This document shows positions 3,425-47,005 of a stretch of 64,000 nt of DNA, piece by piece (the stretch's first letter is position 1; each line of letters begins with the position of its first letter). A model generated the notes under the pieces. The model worked only from the letters and a program-made list of their open reading frames with translations. It ran no database searches and was not told the origin of the DNA. Both the position numbers and the translations under genes were made by a program. The DNA comes from Spirochaetes bacterium GWB1_60_80 (lineage in GTDB: Bacteria > Spirochaetota > Spirochaetia > Treponematales > UBA12059). The stretch covers positions 1-64,000 of the forward strand of contig MIAR01000043.1 in assembly GCA_001829185.1 (NCBI GenBank), written 5' to 3'.

Positions 3425-3497
3425 AAGCCAGGCCGTCGATAAGCTAAAGCAAAAAGATTTTGATTTTTAAGCTGGCCGGCCGGTACCGGACCGCTAA

Positions 3498-3626
3498 CAG
3501 GTTGTTGAAAAAGCCGGTTGCTTTCTCAACAACCTTAACAATTCCTCGCATAGCTTGCGCTATGCTGCGTAATTGTACCGGCTTTTGAAGTGTTGAAAAG
3601 CCGCATCCGCGTTTTTCAACACCCTG
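3498..3626. mobile_element. 129-bp MITE-like element, copy 1
   Basis: This non-coding element is identical over its whole length to 46842-46970. Its ends are imperfect inverted repeats (CAGGTTGTTGAAAAA on the left, CAGGGTGTTGAAAAA on the other strand at the right), and internal palindromes lie around 3501-3533 and 3548-3565. It is flanked on both sides by CTAA (3494-3497 and 3627-3630), a likely 4-bp target duplication. With no room for a transposase it would be moved in trans. It fills the gap between the helicase remnant and the kinase gene. Confidence 0.85.
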
Positions 3627-3689
3627 CTAAACCGGCAGCCAGCCTTCGACTGCATGGTGCAGTCAGGGGGCGGGAGTTTGTTGTGGGGT

Positions 3690-40417: not shown

Positions 40418-41475
40418 ATCGCGCACGAGACCTCTTCACCGCCCTGATGGCGGTATTCCTCGGCCTGGTGGCGGGGGCTATCTTCATGACCGCCATCGGC
40501 GCCAACCCCTTCGCCGGCTTTTTCTACCTGTTTCGCGGCGGCCTGATGTCCATCTCGCGTATCGGCGATACCCTGTCCACCGCCACCACCCTGATCCTAA
40601 CCGGCCTGGCGGTGGCCTTCGCCTTCCGCACCGGCTTGTTCAATATCGGCGTGGCCGGCCAGATGCTGGTCGGCGGCCTCGTGGCCACCATGCTGGCCCT
40701 GACCATCGGCGAGTCGATGCCCAAGTACCTGTTCATCCCGCTGGTGCTGGTCTGCTCGATGCTGGCCGGCGCCCTCTGGGCGGGCATCGCCGGACTGCTC
40801 AAGGCGGCCTTCAACGTCCATGAGGTGGTGGCCACCATCATGCTCAACTGGACCGCCTTCTGGGTGGTCGACTACATCATCCCGACCTTCTTCAAGGCCG
40901 GCCTGGAGACCGAGTCGCGCACCATCCTGTCGGATGCCTCGATGCGCATGGACTGGATGAATCGGCTGTTCGACGGCTCGCACGTCAATTTTGGCCTATT
41001 CGTGTCCATCAGCGCGGTCATCATCATCGCCATCATCCTGGACAAGACGGTGCTTGGTTACGAGCTCAAGGCGGTTGGCTTCAACCACCACGCTGCCGAG
41101 TACGCCGGCATCGACGTGGCGCGCAACGTTACCCTGGCCATGGCCATTTCCGGCGCCCTAGCCGGCCTGGCCGGCGCTACCTATTACACCGGCTACACCC
41201 TGAACATGCAGATCGGCGTCATGCCGACCGCCGGCTTCGACGGCATCGCGGTGGCCCTGTTGGGCGCCAACTCGCCGTGGGGCGTGTTGGCCGCCGCCCT
41301 GTTCTTCGGCATCCTGCACGCCGGCAAGGGCTTGATGGGCGCCAATACCAGCATACCGCCCGAGATCGGCGATACCATCATCGCCACCATCATCTACTTC
41401 GCGGCTACCAGCATCCTGTTCTTCAAGTTATTTGATTATCTCAAGAAAAAATTCAAGAAGGGAGGGCAGGCATGA
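40414..41475 (+). CDS. nupB: Nucleoside ABC importer, permease subunit 1
   Basis: 353 residues, about eight to ten membrane helices, BPD_transp_2 family (GLFNIGVAGQMLVGGL and the ATPase-contact loop GFNHHAAEYAGID, the EAA-like segment). The GTG start overlaps the stop of the ATPase gene. It forms the membrane channel with permease subunit 2. Confidence 0.88.
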   Translation: MNRARDLFTALMAVFLGLVAGAIFMTAIGANPFAGFFYLFRGGLMSISRIGDTLSTATTLILTGLAVAFAFRTGLFNIGVAGQMLVGGLVATMLALTIGESMPKYLFIPLVLVCSMLAGALWAGIAGLLKAAFNVHEVVATIMLNWTAFWVVDYIIPTFFKAGLETESRTILSDASMRMDWMNRLFDGSHVNFGLFVSISAVIIIAIILDKTVLGYELKAVGFNHHAAEYAGIDVARNVTLAMAISGALAGLAGATYYTGYTLNMQIGVMPTAGFDGIAVALLGANSPWGVLAAALFFGILHAGKGLMGANTSIPPEIGDTIIATIIYFAATSILFFKLFDYLKKKFKKGGQA

Positions 41476-42503
41476 ACCTCATCCTGGATATTTTCCCCTA
41501 TGCGATTGCCTATACCATGCCCCTGCTGGCGGCGGCGCTAGGCGGCCTCTATTCGGAGCGCTCCGGCGTCGTCAATATCGGACTGGAAGGCTTGATGGTC
41601 ATGGGCATGTTCGTGTCGGCCATCACCATCGCCGCCTTCGAGCCGGCGATCGCCGTCTGGACGCTGGCGCGCTGCCAGGCCCGCGGCATCGACATCGTCG
41701 CCTCGCCGGCCGAGTACCAGGCCATCTTCAACCATTTCCATGCCATGGTGCTGTGGATCGGCGTCCTGGCCGGAACCCTGGGTGCCACCATTTTCAGCCT
41801 ACTGCACGCCTTTGCCAGCGTGACGCTTAAAGCCAACCAGGTCATCTCCGGCACGGCCATCAACATGATCGCCGGCGCCATAACCGTTTTCCTGGCGCGC
41901 ACCATTTCCGGTTCGGGGAATATCAGCATCAAGCTGGGCTTCCTGCGCGGCGACGTGCCGGTGCTGAGCAAGATACCGCTCCTGGGCCGGCTGTTCTTCA
42001 GCCAGACCTACGCCACCACCTGGTTGGTACTGCTCATCCTGGTTGTTTCCTGGCTGCTGATTTACCGGACGCCCTTCGGCCTGCGCCTGCGTTCCTGCGG
42101 TGAGCATCCCCAGACGGCCGATGCCGCCGGCATCAACGTCTACCGCGTGCGCTACATCGCGGTAATGTTGTCTGGCGCCATGGCCGGCCTGGCCGGCAGC
42201 GTCATGCTAGTGACCTACGCCGGCGAGTTTACCGGCAGCGTGGCCGGCATGGGCTTCCTGGCCCTGGCCGCCCTGATTTTCGGACAGTGGAAGCCGCTGG
42301 GCATCCTTGGTGCCACCTTCTTCTTCGGCATCGCCGCCACCATCGCCAACGTCGCCCCCGGCATCCCGCGGCTCAGCTCCATTCCAGAATGGATATTGCG
42401 CATCTTCCCCTACGTGGTCACGCTGGTGGCCCTGATGCTCTTCTCGAAAACCTCGCAGGCGCCACGTGCCTCCGGGGAGGCTTTTGACAAAGGCAAACGG
42501 TGA
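41472..42503 (+). CDS. nupC: Nucleoside ABC importer, permease subunit 2
   Basis: 343 residues, polytopic, same permease family (YSERSGVVNIGLEGLMV; ATPase-contact loop RSCGEHPQTADAAGIN). It overlaps the previous gene by 4 nt. A loop of about 30 residues around 60-90 (ARCQARGIDIVASPAEYQAIF) is longer than usual. Last gene of the operon; the repeat array begins 16 nt behind its stop codon, so transcription may continue into the repeats. Confidence 0.88.
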   Translation: MNLILDIFPYAIAYTMPLLAAALGGLYSERSGVVNIGLEGLMVMGMFVSAITIAAFEPAIAVWTLARCQARGIDIVASPAEYQAIFNHFHAMVLWIGVLAGTLGATIFSLLHAFASVTLKANQVISGTAINMIAGAITVFLARTISGSGNISIKLGFLRGDVPVLSKIPLLGRLFFSQTYATTWLVLLILVVSWLLIYRTPFGLRLRSCGEHPQTADAAGINVYRVRYIAVMLSGAMAGLAGSVMLVTYAGEFTGSVAGMGFLALAALIFGQWKPLGILGATFFFGIAATIANVAPGIPRLSSIPEWILRIFPYVVTLVALMLFSKTSQAPRASGEAFDKGKR

Positions 42504-42518
42504 CGTTATAAAAAATGT

Positions 42519-42631
42519 GCAGACGCGGGGCCTGGTGCTGCAAGGTATGGTCAGCTTATCGCTTGACCATACCTTGCAGCACCACCAAGCCAAGGGCTTG
42601 GTGCGCACTCGCGCGGGTGCCGGGTTTGTTA
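42519..42631. repeat. Type 1 palindromic element, copy 1
   Basis: The element folds into a 21-bp perfect hairpin (arms 42533-42553 and 42564-42584, loop GCTTATCGCT), then a second hairpin ACCAAGCC/GGCTTGGT, and ends in GGGTTTGTTAG. Outer arms can pair. Layout (about 120 bp, AAC- and GTT-type ends, whole unit quasi-palindromic) resembles integron attC sites. No coding function. Confidence 0.75.
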
Positions 42632-42694
42632 GAAGCGTTTGACTTGGTCAATCGCTTGGTGTGATAGAAGCCTGGGGTTGTGTTCTGAAAACAT

Positions 42695-42811
42695 GGCAGA
42701 CGCGGGGCCTGGTGCTGCAAGATATGGTCAGCTTATCGCTTGACCATACCTTGCAGCGCCACCACGCCGAGGGCTTGGTGCGCACTCGCGCGGGTGCCGG
42801 TATTTGTTGTA
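42695..42811. repeat. Type 1 palindromic element, copy 2
   Basis: Same structure as copy 1; the hairpin arms are 42710-42730 and 42741-42761 with one mismatch and one G-T pair. It is the left half of a composite unit running to 43040. Confidence 0.75.
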
Positions 42812-42956
42812 AGCGTTTGATCTGGTAGATTACCTTGGATGTGCAGATAATCCCATGCAGACGTACGGAGCCAAATAGGCAAGCCATGCTATTGTAGCCT
42901 CCCGCGGCTTCTGCGTTGATACTAACATCACTTAGTGCTATTTGAGCAAGTCCATG

Positions 42957-43040
42957 TTTATAAACAACCCAGGCGCAAGCGCGGGTGGCGCGTCCAAGCG
43001 TGGCTAAGCGATAAGCGCAGCCATGCTTGAAAGCGCCAGG
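42957..43040. repeat. Type 2 palindromic element, copy 1
   Basis: A shorter element in inverse orientation to type 1. It begins TATAAACAACCC, contains the loop sequence AGCGATAAGC (inverse of the type 1 loop) in a shorter hairpin (AAGCGTGGCT and AGCCATGCTT) and ends CCAATGTTT. Confidence 0.7.
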
Positions 43041-43139
43041 ACCCGCGGCTCCAATGTTTAAATAGAATAGCCATAAGTGCTAAGGCTATCAGGGCAGGCT
43101 TATGTAATTTGACAACCTCGCTATGTTAGCGCAGGGCAC

Positions 43140-43613
43140 TTATAGATAACGCCGGACTTGTGTCCGATAGGCTGAATATTCGTCGCCGAATCGTGCCGCT
43201 AGGAATTTTTCCTCACCTCGGATAATCAGGTCATAGACCGCCATGCTGTAAAGCCCCGCCACCCAGGCGACCGGATTTGATATCGCTAACATGGCTGCAA
43301 TAGTGAGAAGATTGAAACCGACATACATCGGATTGCGGCTCAATCGGTATATCCCACCTGTTTTCAGCTTGGTATCGCCTTGGGGTAAGCCTAAGCGCGT
43401 TGATTTTCCTAAGCTGACCGCACTGGCCGCGATAAATATCAAGCCTAGCAGCAGCGCGGCGATAGCCAGTATATCCAAGACCGGCAGCTCAAATTCCGGA
43501 ATGAACTTGATTCCAAAGCACCCGAGGCCACCTCCCACCCACAGTGCATAACCACTCACCTTGCCAGAATAAAACAGCACTGGATTGATCGTCGCTTTCC
43601 CAATAATTTCCAT
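43140..43613 (-). CDS. Isoprenylcysteine carboxyl methyltransferase (ICMT/PEMT)-family membrane protein
   Basis: 157 residues with four to five membrane helices and the C-terminal methyltransferase signature of the family: RLSRNPMYVGF (about 96-106) and EEKFLAARFGDEYSAYRTQVRRY at the end. Bacterial members methylate small molecules, lipids or unknown substrates with S-adenosylmethionine. The ATG at 43613 has AAGGAG 6 nt upstream. Its GC content is clearly lower than that of the flanking chromosome, and it is the only gene inside the repeat array, bracketed by two copies of the composite repeat. It looks like the cargo of a gene cassette. Confidence 0.82.
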   Translation of the reverse strand: MEIIGKATINPVLFYSGKVSGYALWVGGGLGCFGIKFIPEFELPVLDILAIAALLLGLIFIAASAVSLGKSTRLGLPQGDTKLKTGGIYRLSRNPMYVGFNLLTIAAMLAISNPVAWVAGLYSMAVYDLIIRGEEKFLAARFGDEYSAYRTQVRRYL

Positions 43614-43685
43614 GGTTACTCCTTGCCTCATACGCACCGGCTAGCTCTAATGTCCCAAGTCGGTATCGGCTTATCAACCAAAAAG

Positions 43686-43816
43686 TATTAACAGCTTGGC
43701 AGTCGCGGGTCCTGGTGCTGCAAGGCAGGGTCAGCTTATCGCTTGACCCTGCCTTGCAGCACCACCAAGCCGAAGGCTTGGTGCGCACTCGCGCGGCTGC
43801 CGGGTTTGTTATAAAC
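43686..43816. repeat. Type 1 palindromic element, copy 3
   Basis: It has a 21-bp perfect hairpin at 43713-43733 and 43744-43764 with the same loop as copy 1 but two changed base pairs, both compensated. Outer arms GGCAG and CTGCC pair; ends carry TATTAAC and GTTATAAAC. Confidence 0.78.
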
Positions 43817-43955
43817 GTTTGCGTTGTCAAATTGCGTTGTGCGTGTCTACAATCCCCTGCAGAAACTTGAAGCCACTTTGCCAGCCGTGCCGTAGCCACC
43901 CACGTCTCCTGCGTTGGTCATAACATCACTGTGTGCTATCTGAGCAACCCTCAGC

Positions 43956-44056
43956 GTATAAACAACCCAGGCGCCCGCGCGGGTGGCGCGGCCAGGTGCG
44001 TCCAGCGATAAGCTGGCCGCACCTGAAAGCGCCAGGCCCTGCGTCTGCCAATGTTA
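43956..44056. repeat. Type 2 palindromic element, copy 2
   Basis: It begins GTATAAACAACCC and has a hairpin AGGTGCG-CCAGC with loop GATAA and its complement; it ends CTGCCAATGTTA. With type 1 copy 3 it forms a composite unit like 42695-43040; the spacer between the halves is also conserved (AACATCACT, GTGCTAT, TGAGCAA). Confidence 0.72.
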
Positions 44057-44067
44057 TTTGTAACGTA

Positions 44068-45378
44068 TCACTTGCCCGAAATGTCCGCAGGCCCAGCCTG
44101 CAGCCAGGGCAGTATGGCCGAGCCATAGTTGACTCGTTCCCTGGAGATGGCCTTGACGTCGCTGAACAGCTTGGCCAGGTTGCCGGCGATCATGGTTTCG
44201 CCGATCGGCCGGACGATCTTGCCTTGCTCGATCAGGTAGGAGTTCTTGGCTACGCCGGAAAAATCGCCCGAGTCGGAGGGGCTGCCGCCGGAGAAGCGCA
44301 TCAGCAGCAAGCCGCGCTCGATGCTCTTGACCATATCCTGCCAGCCAAGTTCGCCAGGGTCAACCATCAAGCCGCCGCCACCCGAAGGGCAGCGCGGTCG
44401 GCCGCTTTTGTTGGCGGCGTACAGACCGATACTGAAGTTTCGCAAGACGCCTTTTTCGATGAGCAGGCAGTCCTCGGTCCGGAAGCCGTCGCCGGTGTAC
44501 GGCGAGTTGGCCGCCAGCTCGGGGCTGTTGGGCAGGGAACGCACCGTCAGCTGCGGTGAGGTTACCGCCTGCCCGAGTTTGGCGGCCCAGGGCGAGGTAC
44601 CGGTGATGATCGGGTAATCGCTGGTATAGACGCCGTCAAGCATGCCCAGGAAATCGCCTAGGCAGTCGGGCGCTATTAATAGGTCGCCGGAGAAATTGCC
44701 CTGCACCGGCTGGGTGACGGTCTGCTCGGTGGATTGCCGCATCAAGAGGTCGATACTGCCCCAGTCCTTAAGTGGTTGGTCCAGGTTCTTCTGGACGGCG
44801 CCGGAGTAGTTGAAGCTGGAGGCGTTGCCGCCGTCCTTACTGGTGAACATGGCGCTGAAATTATACAAGCCGCCGCGTTGCTCGAACTCGGCGCCGTTGG
44901 AGTTGGCGAAGAAGCTCTCGCCGCGGCTGAAGTCCAGTACGCACTGTTCCAGATGGGTGATCGGGTAGCGTTCCTGGCAATAGGCGATAAACTCTTGCAG
45001 GCGCTCGTACATCTTGTCGGAGTCGGGCTCCAGCTGGCCGTCCTCGAAGGACTCCAGCGGCCGGGCCGGCGAGATGTCGTTGGCCGGATCGGGTTGGCTG
45101 GAGCGGGCCATCGAAACGGCCTCGGCGGCCGCGGCCTCGATGCTCTGGTCGTCGTACTTGTTCAGGCTGACGCTGCCTTTACGGGTTTCAGTCAAGGCCG
45201 TCAGGCTGAGCGACACGTTGACCGTGCTGCGGTAGAGGCTCAATTTGCCGGCGTCGATGTTCATCTCGTTCTGGACGCCGCAGCCGAAACTGGCTGTAGC
45301 CTGGTCGGCTCCGGCCGCTCTCAGGGCGGCCACCGCCTTGCGGACTATCGCCATGCCGTCGAATTTCTGCGCGCTCAT
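44068..45378 (-). CDS. tldE: TldE/PmbA-family protein
   Basis: 436 residues, PmbA/TldE type (DQATASFGCGVQNEMNIDAGKLSLYRST near the start, RCPSGGGGLMVDPGEL towards the end). TldE has no catalytic zinc site; it forms a heterodimer with TldD that digests unfolded or modified peptides and helps quinone- or microcin-type maturation in other bacteria. Its start overlaps the tldD stop codon by 4 nt (ATGA). The ATG at 45378 has GGGAGG 5 nt upstream; residues ahead of it in frame come from overlap with tldD. The gene ends 12 nt from the repeat array. Confidence 0.9.
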   Translation of the reverse strand: MSAQKFDGMAIVRKAVAALRAAGADQATASFGCGVQNEMNIDAGKLSLYRSTVNVSLSLTALTETRKGSVSLNKYDDQSIEAAAAEAVSMARSSQPDPANDISPARPLESFEDGQLEPDSDKMYERLQEFIAYCQERYPITHLEQCVLDFSRGESFFANSNGAEFEQRGGLYNFSAMFTSKDGGNASSFNYSGAVQKNLDQPLKDWGSIDLLMRQSTEQTVTQPVQGNFSGDLLIAPDCLGDFLGMLDGVYTSDYPIITGTSPWAAKLGQAVTSPQLTVRSLPNSPELAANSPYTGDGFRTEDCLLIEKGVLRNFSIGLYAANKSGRPRCPSGGGGLMVDPGELGWQDMVKSIERGLLLMRFSGGSPSDSGDFSGVAKNSYLIEQGKIVRPIGETMIAGNLAKLFSDVKAISRERVNYGSAILPWLQAGPADISGK

Positions 45379-46757
45379 GCTCGGCCTCCCACGTTGATAC
45401 GGCACTTGATGGCTGGTCCGCCCATGCCTACCGGAATGGACTGTTTCTTGCCGCACATGCCGGCGCCGGTCCAGCTCATGTCGTCGGAAACCATGGTCAC
45501 GGTCTTGAGCATGTTGAAGGCGATACCGGAGATGGTGCAGTCGCGTACCGCCGCGCCGAGCTTGCCGTTGTTGATCTCGTAGCCCATAACCACCCCGAAC
45601 ATGAATTCGGAGGTGGAATCGGCCTGGCCGTTGGATGATGTAAGAAAATAATAACCCTTGTCGACGCTGGCGATCATGTCGGCCAGCTTGCTTGAACCCG
45701 GCAGGATGGCGGTGTTGCGCATGCGGATGAGGGGTTCGTCGTAGAAGCCATAGGCGCGGGCGTTGCCGGTCGGATCGGCGCTAAAATGCCGGGCTGACTC
45801 CTTGTTGTGCATGTAGCTCTTGAGGACGCCATCCTTGATGAGTACGGCGTCCTTGGCCGCCGTGCCCTCGTCGTCGATCCATAGCGGTACCGGACAGAGC
45901 TTGCCGTAGGCGGTGTTGGCGAAGTCGACCATGGTGACCAGCGGGCTGGCTACCGCTTGGTTCATATAATCGGCCGCTACCGAGCCGCCCAGTACCAGGT
46001 CGGCCTCCACGGTGTGGCCGATGGCTTCGTGAGCCAGGATGCCGGCCAGGTCGGAGTCGAGGACTACCTCGTGCTCGCCGGGTTTTGCATAGACGCCCTT
46101 GGCCTTTTGCCGCAGACGGTCGGCCAATAGGTCGATTTTGGGGTAAAGCGCGGACGGCTGGTCGAAAATGTCCTCGAACTGACCGGGGCCGCCGATGACC
46201 TCGTACAGGTCGACTGGTTCGCCGTTTTCTTCCATGGTAAAGGAGGCGTAGACTAGGCTGCGGGCGATCAAGCTCCAGGCGTCGCCGCCGTCGGCCGTCA
46301 GTACGGTTTTCTCCATATCCAGCCCGGATAGCATCAAGGTGCGGGCCTTGAGGTAGGGGTACTTGGCGGCTGCATACGCGTCAACGTCGCGTAGGAAGTC
46401 AATGTAGGCTTTTTGTTCTAACCGCGGTTTGGTAGTGGCTAGGCTGTTTTGACCGATGCCGGGACGAGCGGGCAGGGCGCCGGTCGGTTGGCCGGCCTTG
46501 CTGCCTAGGAAGCGAGCGTTGTCGGTGGCCAGACGGATGGCTTGGCGGATCGCCTCGTCGTCACTCTCCGGCGTAGACGCGAAACCCCACAACCCGTTCT
46601 TGAAGACTCGCGCCGACATGCCGCCCTGCGCGTTGCGTGCGTTTCGTACAATGTCGCCGTTCAGGATGCCGACCGCGACGGACCGGTTCTCCTGGACGCG
46701 CAACTCCGTGTACTCGGAGAAGAGCGCTTTGTGCCGCTCAATGTTTGCATATTGCAT
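45375..46757 (-). CDS. tldD: TldD metalloprotease
   Basis: 460 residues. The zinc motif HEAIGHTVEAD (HExxxH, about 243-248) and the conserved late MCGKKQ and GGPAIKCR segments identify TldD. With TldE it forms the protease that degrades unfolded peptides through a narrow channel. AGGAG lies 6 nt before the ATG. A weak promoter (TTGACG at 46810-46815, 17 nt, TAGCTT at 46787-46792) lies upstream, only about 27 nt from the end of the second MITE copy, so the insertion could affect its expression. Confidence 0.93.
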   Translation of the reverse strand: MQYANIERHKALFSEYTELRVQENRSVAVGILNGDIVRNARNAQGGMSARVFKNGLWGFASTPESDDEAIRQAIRLATDNARFLGSKAGQPTGALPARPGIGQNSLATTKPRLEQKAYIDFLRDVDAYAAAKYPYLKARTLMLSGLDMEKTVLTADGGDAWSLIARSLVYASFTMEENGEPVDLYEVIGGPGQFEDIFDQPSALYPKIDLLADRLRQKAKGVYAKPGEHEVVLDSDLAGILAHEAIGHTVEADLVLGGSVAADYMNQAVASPLVTMVDFANTAYGKLCPVPLWIDDEGTAAKDAVLIKDGVLKSYMHNKESARHFSADPTGNARAYGFYDEPLIRMRNTAILPGSSKLADMIASVDKGYYFLTSSNGQADSTSEFMFGVVMGYEINNGKLGAAVRDCTISGIAFNMLKTVTMVSDDMSWTGAGMCGKKQSIPVGMGGPAIKCRINVGGRA

Positions 46758-46841
46758 GCCTGCTCCTGTGAGTTGGAATGTACTTGAAGCTAATGCCGGA
46801 ACGGCCAGCCGTCAAGCGGAAAAGAAAAGCCGCCGGATTAG

Positions 46842-46970
46842 CAGGTTGTTGAAAAAGCCGGTTGCTTTCTCAACAACCTTAACAATTCCTCGCATAGCTT
46901 GCGCTATGCTGCGTAATTGTACCGGCTTTTGAAGTGTTGAAAAGCCGCATCCGCGTTTTTCAACACCCTG
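46842..46970. mobile_element. 129-bp MITE-like element, copy 2
   Basis: All 129 bp are identical to 3498-3626. It is flanked by TTAG on the left (46838-46841) and CTAG on the right (46971-46974). With the CTAA pair of copy 1 all flanks fit YTAR, a target pattern known for IS5-type elements. It sits in the gap between tldD and the TPR-kinase gene, in front of tldD. Confidence 0.85.
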
Positions 46971-47005
46971 CTAGACCGAAGCGGCGGACGCGTCCCTGGA
47001 AAGGA

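Follow-up and report, generated by a model that had tools for sequence, protein, structure and literature searches.

Large intergenic palindromes of bacteria include ERIC, an element of about 127 bp that is described as a sequence-conserved repeat. Smaller palindromes make up the REP, BIME and REPIN elements, of which the CGTC REPs are reported to occur in Spirochaetes among other phyla, without a dedicated transposase, and consist of a CGTC tag, a stem of 8-9 bp, a loop of 4-5 nt and a CCA tail (Di Nocera et al. 2013, PMC3733652). Integrons, whose attC sites are palindromes of another kind, are present in the same bacterial order as the genome considered here, as chromosomal integrons of Treponema (PMC3607928). 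The stretch analysed, referred to below as the window, comprises 64,000 nucleotides of the genome of Spirochaetes bacterium GWB1_60_80 (G000; 3.6 Mb in 59 contigs, 96% complete). A preliminary description of the window proposed that a group of large palindromes around one foreign-looking gene might be integron attC sites. Our analysis indicates that the palindromes probably belong instead to a previously undescribed family of the REP/REPIN/BIME class, made up of palindromic repeats that are dispersed between genes, larger than the known members and built differently. Its units would be non-autonomous and subject to both spreading and gene conversion.

The interval between the permease and tldE genes

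The gap between two convergent genes, one for an ABC permease (labelled nupC in the preliminary description, an assignment that the Pfam match replaces) and one of the tldE/pmbA type, is occupied by five palindromes, three of type 1 and two, in inverted orientation, of type 2, and by a single gene. The features are as follows.

41472..42503, + strand: flanking ABC permease gene (BPD_transp_2, Pfam match), convergent with tldE; orthologue at G001:C274:8991-9935
42517..42640, - strand: type 1 element copy 1, a core hairpin with two small side hairpins, 14 bp past the permease stop codon
42676..43070, no strand: doublet 1, a type 1 unit and an inverted type 2 unit separated by a conserved spacer
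42694..42817, - strand: type 1 copy 2, on the left in doublet 1 (sequence repeat, folding, covariance models)
42960..43054, + strand: type 2 copy 1, on the right in doublet 1, in the form dispersed through the genome
43140..43637, - strand: PEMT/ICMT-family methyltransferase gene, 165 aa, a low-GC, foreign-looking cargo
43681..44067, no strand: doublet 2, a direct repeat of doublet 1 on the other side of the cargo gene
43697..43820, - strand: type 1 copy 3, on the left in doublet 2 (sequence repeat, folding, covariance models)
43958..44051, + strand: type 2 copy 2, on the right in doublet 2, with its end 16 bp from the stop codon of tldE
44068..45456, - strand: flanking tldE/pmbA-type gene; orthologue at G001:C274:11386-12720

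Repeat comparison and folding far beyond chance bear out the five palindromes as first described, and likewise the two homologous composite units, doublets 1 and 2, which share 74% ungapped identity. The type 1 copies (from 42519, 42696 and 43699) are 78-87% identical to a 143-nt reference copy, and the type 2 copies D2 and D3 (within 42894-43050 and 43892-44046) show 81-87% identity. Every type 1 copy contains a long inverted repeat, which in copies 1 and 3 consists of 21-nt arms that are 100% complementary and separated by a 10-nt loop. As single-stranded DNA, the type 1 copies fold to reach -33 to -49 kcal/mol (z -4 to -9, with no shuffled sequence equally stable) and the type 2 copies a z of -4.7, again far beyond chance; type 1 copy 1 is also matched by covariance models on the - strand at 42485-42646 and 42489-42642. 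The segment as a whole is bounded by inverted arms (42512-42567 and 44000-44055) that are 79% complementary. Its outer edges (42506-42527 and about 44046-44066) are inverted copies of approximately ACGTTA(T/C)AA...GCAGACGC, lying directly past the permease stop codon and directly ahead of that of tldE.

The enclosed gene was correctly recognised in the preliminary description as a lower-GC, foreign-looking member of the ICMT family. Its product matches Pfam PEMT (6.6e-13) and ICMT (1.5e-5), its GC content is 0.51 in a window of 0.62, and its third-position GC is 0.54 as against 0.82-0.85 in neighbouring genes. The nearest relatives, about 50% identical, are found in Bacteroidetes and Spirochaetota; since neither palindromes nor attC sites occur at the 16 loci with related genes that were inspected (the best 13, L096 and two weaker ones), these relatives do not point to a shared cassette.

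In the congener G001, the permease and tldE products have orthologues (72% and 76% protein identity) whose genes converge on a gap of 1.45 kb. This gap holds a different gene, with a weak OmpA-like match below the Pfam cut-off, and neither a methyltransferase gene nor a palindrome. The array is therefore not constant among relatives, and the segment is variable.

Dispersed copies, their architecture and their exchange

A BLAST search with the segment placed the type 2 core on ten contigs of G000. The search for further copies was extended with a covariance model built from 14 cores (R1), which located about 30 distinct places in this genome, the list of 48 matches including antisense ones because the units are palindromic; dispersed full copies reach about 440 bp and contain further nested stems. 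Elsewhere, R1 detected full-length units in the sister genus g8 (G008, G020 and G023), which has at least 10 units per genome, and single or few units in G001, G003 and G056, the congener G001 having one. A broader model (R3), whose unit counts per genome are lower bounds because no more than ten candidates in each were scored, extends the family to 22 of 294 genomes of the order and 14 of its 83 genera; what three genomes of family f5 show is for the most part a core hairpin that lacks the outer stem. Doublets in inverted arrangement were found again in G020, G023 and G080. The fallback that the preliminary description had offered, an unrelated palindromic element family, thus proved apt, given the dispersed copies in the genome and its relatives. 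No Rfam family matched the palindromes at or above its gathering score (weak microRNA matches lay far below the cut-offs, and only a tRNA was found, in L076), and identity with a known RNA family was rejected on this ground; a coding function was also set aside, as the overlying open reading frames look mechanical and their contexts vary.

Two other repeats were encountered. One, of about 137 bp and unrelated to the palindromes, lies at 46838-46974 and 3495-3629 of the window and at L016 1101-1241 and L022 1136-1275; its copies are 98-99% identical, which suggests recent activity. The other, of about 160 bp, lies near some of the genome's own units (L003 1625-1784, L013 1062-1221 and L006 1083-1243).

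The units combine a fixed base with a variable tip. The base is nearly invariant across genera and consists of an outer stem, CGGCG...CGCCG, followed by GGGTG...CAGG(C/A)CCC with an unpaired GG bulge. The apical hairpin measures 52-62 nt in most g8 units, the whole unit being about 160 bp; many G000 units carry the tip GCGATAAGC on stems that vary, and a second subfamily is built on another stem. Changes on both sides of a pair were counted in 139 cells of the alignment versus 34.3 +/- 4.9 in shuffles, and 94% of cells are paired versus 37-56% with one strand slid, figures that come from related rows and from a structure drawn from that very alignment. Such covariation could also arise without selection, through templated correction of imperfect palindromes. 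Two inner pairs of the apical stem (A5 columns 79-122 and 81-120), adjoining a conserved TGTG on the 3' arm, are preferentially G-U on the same strand (15/36 and 23/36), a bias over A-C that was read by eye from the pair table at these two positions and is not taken as proof of an RNA function. In two copies, L012 (G000:C7:2704-2861) and L018 (G000:C32:27460-27617), the 3' base carries TTGA(A/T)A and, 17 nt further, TATAAT, a near-perfect match to an outward sigma-70 promoter; other copies have weaker second hexamers.

Orthologous sites were compared among G008, G020 and G023 at seven shared loci, which gave nine unit comparisons. The flanks of the unit at site A are 93% identical between G008 and G023, and its base is the same in both; the entire apical hairpin is different, G020 agreeing with G023. 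The G008 unit of site E2 is close to the adjoining unit E1 (98% in the apical part, 97% in the base) and not to its G020 orthologue. Other unit pairs show apical identities of 0.87-0.92 with base identities of 0.69-0.77, and in sets B, C, C2, D and F the tips are identical or compensated. From these alignments we infer that the distribution of tips is best explained if copies exchange the core as a block, through gene conversion or re-insertion. The point of note is that a tip can be exchanged as a block between nearly identical flanks while the structure is conserved; a literature search for bacterial palindromes that combine variable stems with gene conversion yielded nothing. The family may accordingly serve as a natural setting in which to examine whether covariation in such palindromes is due to selection on structure, to gene conversion or to templated mutation.

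The position of the units relative to genes brings in the main rival explanation, that they are structured RNAs at the 3' ends of mRNAs, i.e., terminators or stabilising hairpins maintained by selection with little or no mobility. In g8, by heuristic open reading frame calls and with some units sharing loci, 21 of 27 units (binomial p 0.006) have their 3' side toward the stop codon of a gene that runs into them, and 18 of the 27 lie 3-62 bp past such a stop codon. The trend is weak in G000 (12/21), and the window conforms to it at both ends, with the permease and tldE stop codons close to type 1 copy 1 and type 2 copy 2, respectively. The strong covariation, the proximity of g8 units to stop codons, the positions common to several species and the two G-U-rich pairs would all suit such an RNA. 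Copy number, however, ranges widely, from about 30 places in G000 to one in its congener, whose orthologous gap is without an element; several of the genome's own copies apparently lie between divergent genes (by crude open reading frame calls); and the core hairpin has neither a T tract behind it nor an Rfam match. Terminator-like sites exceed shuffled sequences only modestly (5 vs 2.1), and those seen are small side hairpins or the base motif and not the core stem. Weighing both sides, we consider a 3'-end RNA possible but rather doubtful as the explanation of the family.

Integron sites, transposon ends and gene capture

G000 encodes an integron integrase at C56:348-1583 (TIGR02249, 428.8 bits), on a contig other than that of the window, and an integrase above the family cut-off was found in 23 of the 59 genomes of the order that were searched, G000 included. 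The presence of intI in this genome and in many relatives made the attC idea worth a real test. The open frame of the G000 integrase (C56:345-1583, L076) encodes 434 aa with an N-terminal extension, and its 3' end points toward the contig edge; the gene is at a contig edge in many relatives as well, as if the cassette array on its 3' side (the intI being reverse-oriented) had not been assembled. Two partial matches to the integron integrase model (integrase_gron), G000:C23:39871-40677 and 44809-45621, are long open frames about 5 kb apart and appear to be tyrosine recombinases of some other element.

For the test, a covariance model of attC (R2) was built from 14 aligned genuine sites of Treponema-denticola-like relatives and of class 1 integrons on plasmids. 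It gives up to about 73 bits on genuine sites and found 59 matches in the Treponema-denticola-like genome G055, 2 in G020 and 4 in G000, the last being candidate genuine sites (C7:887-944, C35:58973-59089, C45:93425-93542 and C45:96198-96304; 27.8-44.1 bits). R2 returned no attC match in the window, and with all filters off the best score across 42300-44200 (1.9 kb) was 6.5 bits, with an E of 1.3. In a search for the core boxes, by a method that does pick up the genuine attC sites of T. denticola-like genomes, there were no paired RYYYAAC (R'') and GTTRRRY (R') boxes on either strand of 42504-44067, and few matches elsewhere in the window, at the level of shuffled sequence. The units, moreover, are not arrayed beside intI: they are scattered singly over many contigs and occur in both orientations within one cluster. 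The genuine integrase, the real attC sites elsewhere in G000, the similar palindrome size and the fixed base with variable tip had all spoken for an attC cluster without an integrase; against the missing R boxes, the gulf in model score and the dispersed, oppositely oriented units, that reading retains virtually no probability, and membership by sequence is refuted by the box search and the purpose-built model with their positive controls. The attC-cluster part of the proposal falls. Of the three observations that the preliminary description named as refuting it, however, two were not borne out, since the genome as a whole possesses an integrase, on another contig, and the array is not present unchanged in the relatives. 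It appears that an attC-like architecture, with a fixed base, a variable tip and about one unit per gene, can arise outside integrons, even alongside a real integrase.

Cargo is enclosed by units at other loci also. An inverted pair at G020:C36 has a short spacer, and at G023:C446 the same site encloses a gene of 0.42 GC in a contig of 0.68 GC, flanked on both sides by 75-bp direct repeats that are 84% identical. At G003:C319, where masked bases blur the locus, an AbiEii gene lies within an inverted pair, and parts of units are here too repeated directly; this locus (L214, 1720-2880) consists of an AbiEii-type nucleotidyl transferase gene and a small upstream partner gene. Such inverted pairs around low-GC genes, together with the complementary arms that bound the window segment, are what one would expect if the palindromes were the ends of a composite transposon or MITE carrying the methyltransferase, with the outermost type 1 and type 2 units as terminal inverted repeats. 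Most copies, however, are single units or empty doublets, the cargo differs each time, a linked transposase is absent and the match between outer ends is not repeated in dispersed copies (full form about 440 bp), all of which makes transposon ends a very unlikely reading. No autonomous element related to the units was seen, and no target duplication was obtained for them; the G001 contigs sampled for empty sites provided the window locus and two partly aligned loci, none of them clean.

The same loci would also fit repeats that act as integrase-free gene-capture sites. A foreign gene lying beside a unit, e.g., on a circular molecule, would recombine with a resident doublet and be left between direct copies of doublet parts; the methyltransferase of the window, the AbiEii gene of G003:C319 and the low-GC gene of G023:C446 would then be three independent captures, and the exchange of apical hairpins a trace of the same frequent recombination. 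We regard capture as unlikely, and three loci are too few for a claim of such a mechanism.

The family among described repeat classes

The reading as a REP/REPIN-like family draws together the dispersed homologous copies in G000, the same architecture in other genera, the covariation, the apical replacement at an orthologous site, the inverted doublets, the positions behind stop codons, the cargo that in the window, G003 and G023 adjoins directly repeated parts of units, and the absence of the array from the orthologous G001 gap. The units would be non-autonomous, spreading through recognition of their folded base by an enzyme that acts in trans, and ectopic gene conversion would homogenise them. 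In the window, units may have been inserted or duplicated between the two convergent genes, and the foreign methyltransferase gene may have come between two direct copies of the doublet via recombination between repeats. Against this reading, several g8 copies are old and hold the same positions across species, which fits a functional, vertically inherited element no less than a mobile one; the 3'-end bias is weak in G000 itself, and neither a clean empty site nor a target duplication was obtained. The Y1/RAYT transposase domain (PF01797), which was detected in 5 of 14 control genomes, had no match in G000, so that no mobilising enzyme was identified and an IS200/IS605/RAYT origin was rejected; the units thereby raise the question of what spreads REP-like elements without a RAYT.

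Like attC sites, the units can fold as single strands, with a conserved base and a variable terminal structure, and here occur about once per gene; unlike them, they have neither AAC/GTT R boxes nor an attC model score, and are dispersed in both orientations and not arrayed. ERIC, by its description, is similar in size class, intergenic location and extended palindromic fold, whereas in the present units conservation is confined to the base and tips are exchanged. The closest likeness in broad terms is to the REP, BIME and REPIN elements of the GTAG and CGTC superfamilies (PMC3733652), which are also dispersed intergenic palindromes found as singlets and often as inverted doublets, mostly downstream of coding regions. 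Of the features of the GTAG superfamily, no GTAG tag was seen in the units and no Y1 transposase was found, and a CGTC-tagged REP was rejected because the geometry does not fit, the g8 apical parts being 52-62 nt long on another base. What sets them apart from REPs in general is this large apical part, carried on a fixed base with its GG bulge and composed of interchangeable hairpins.
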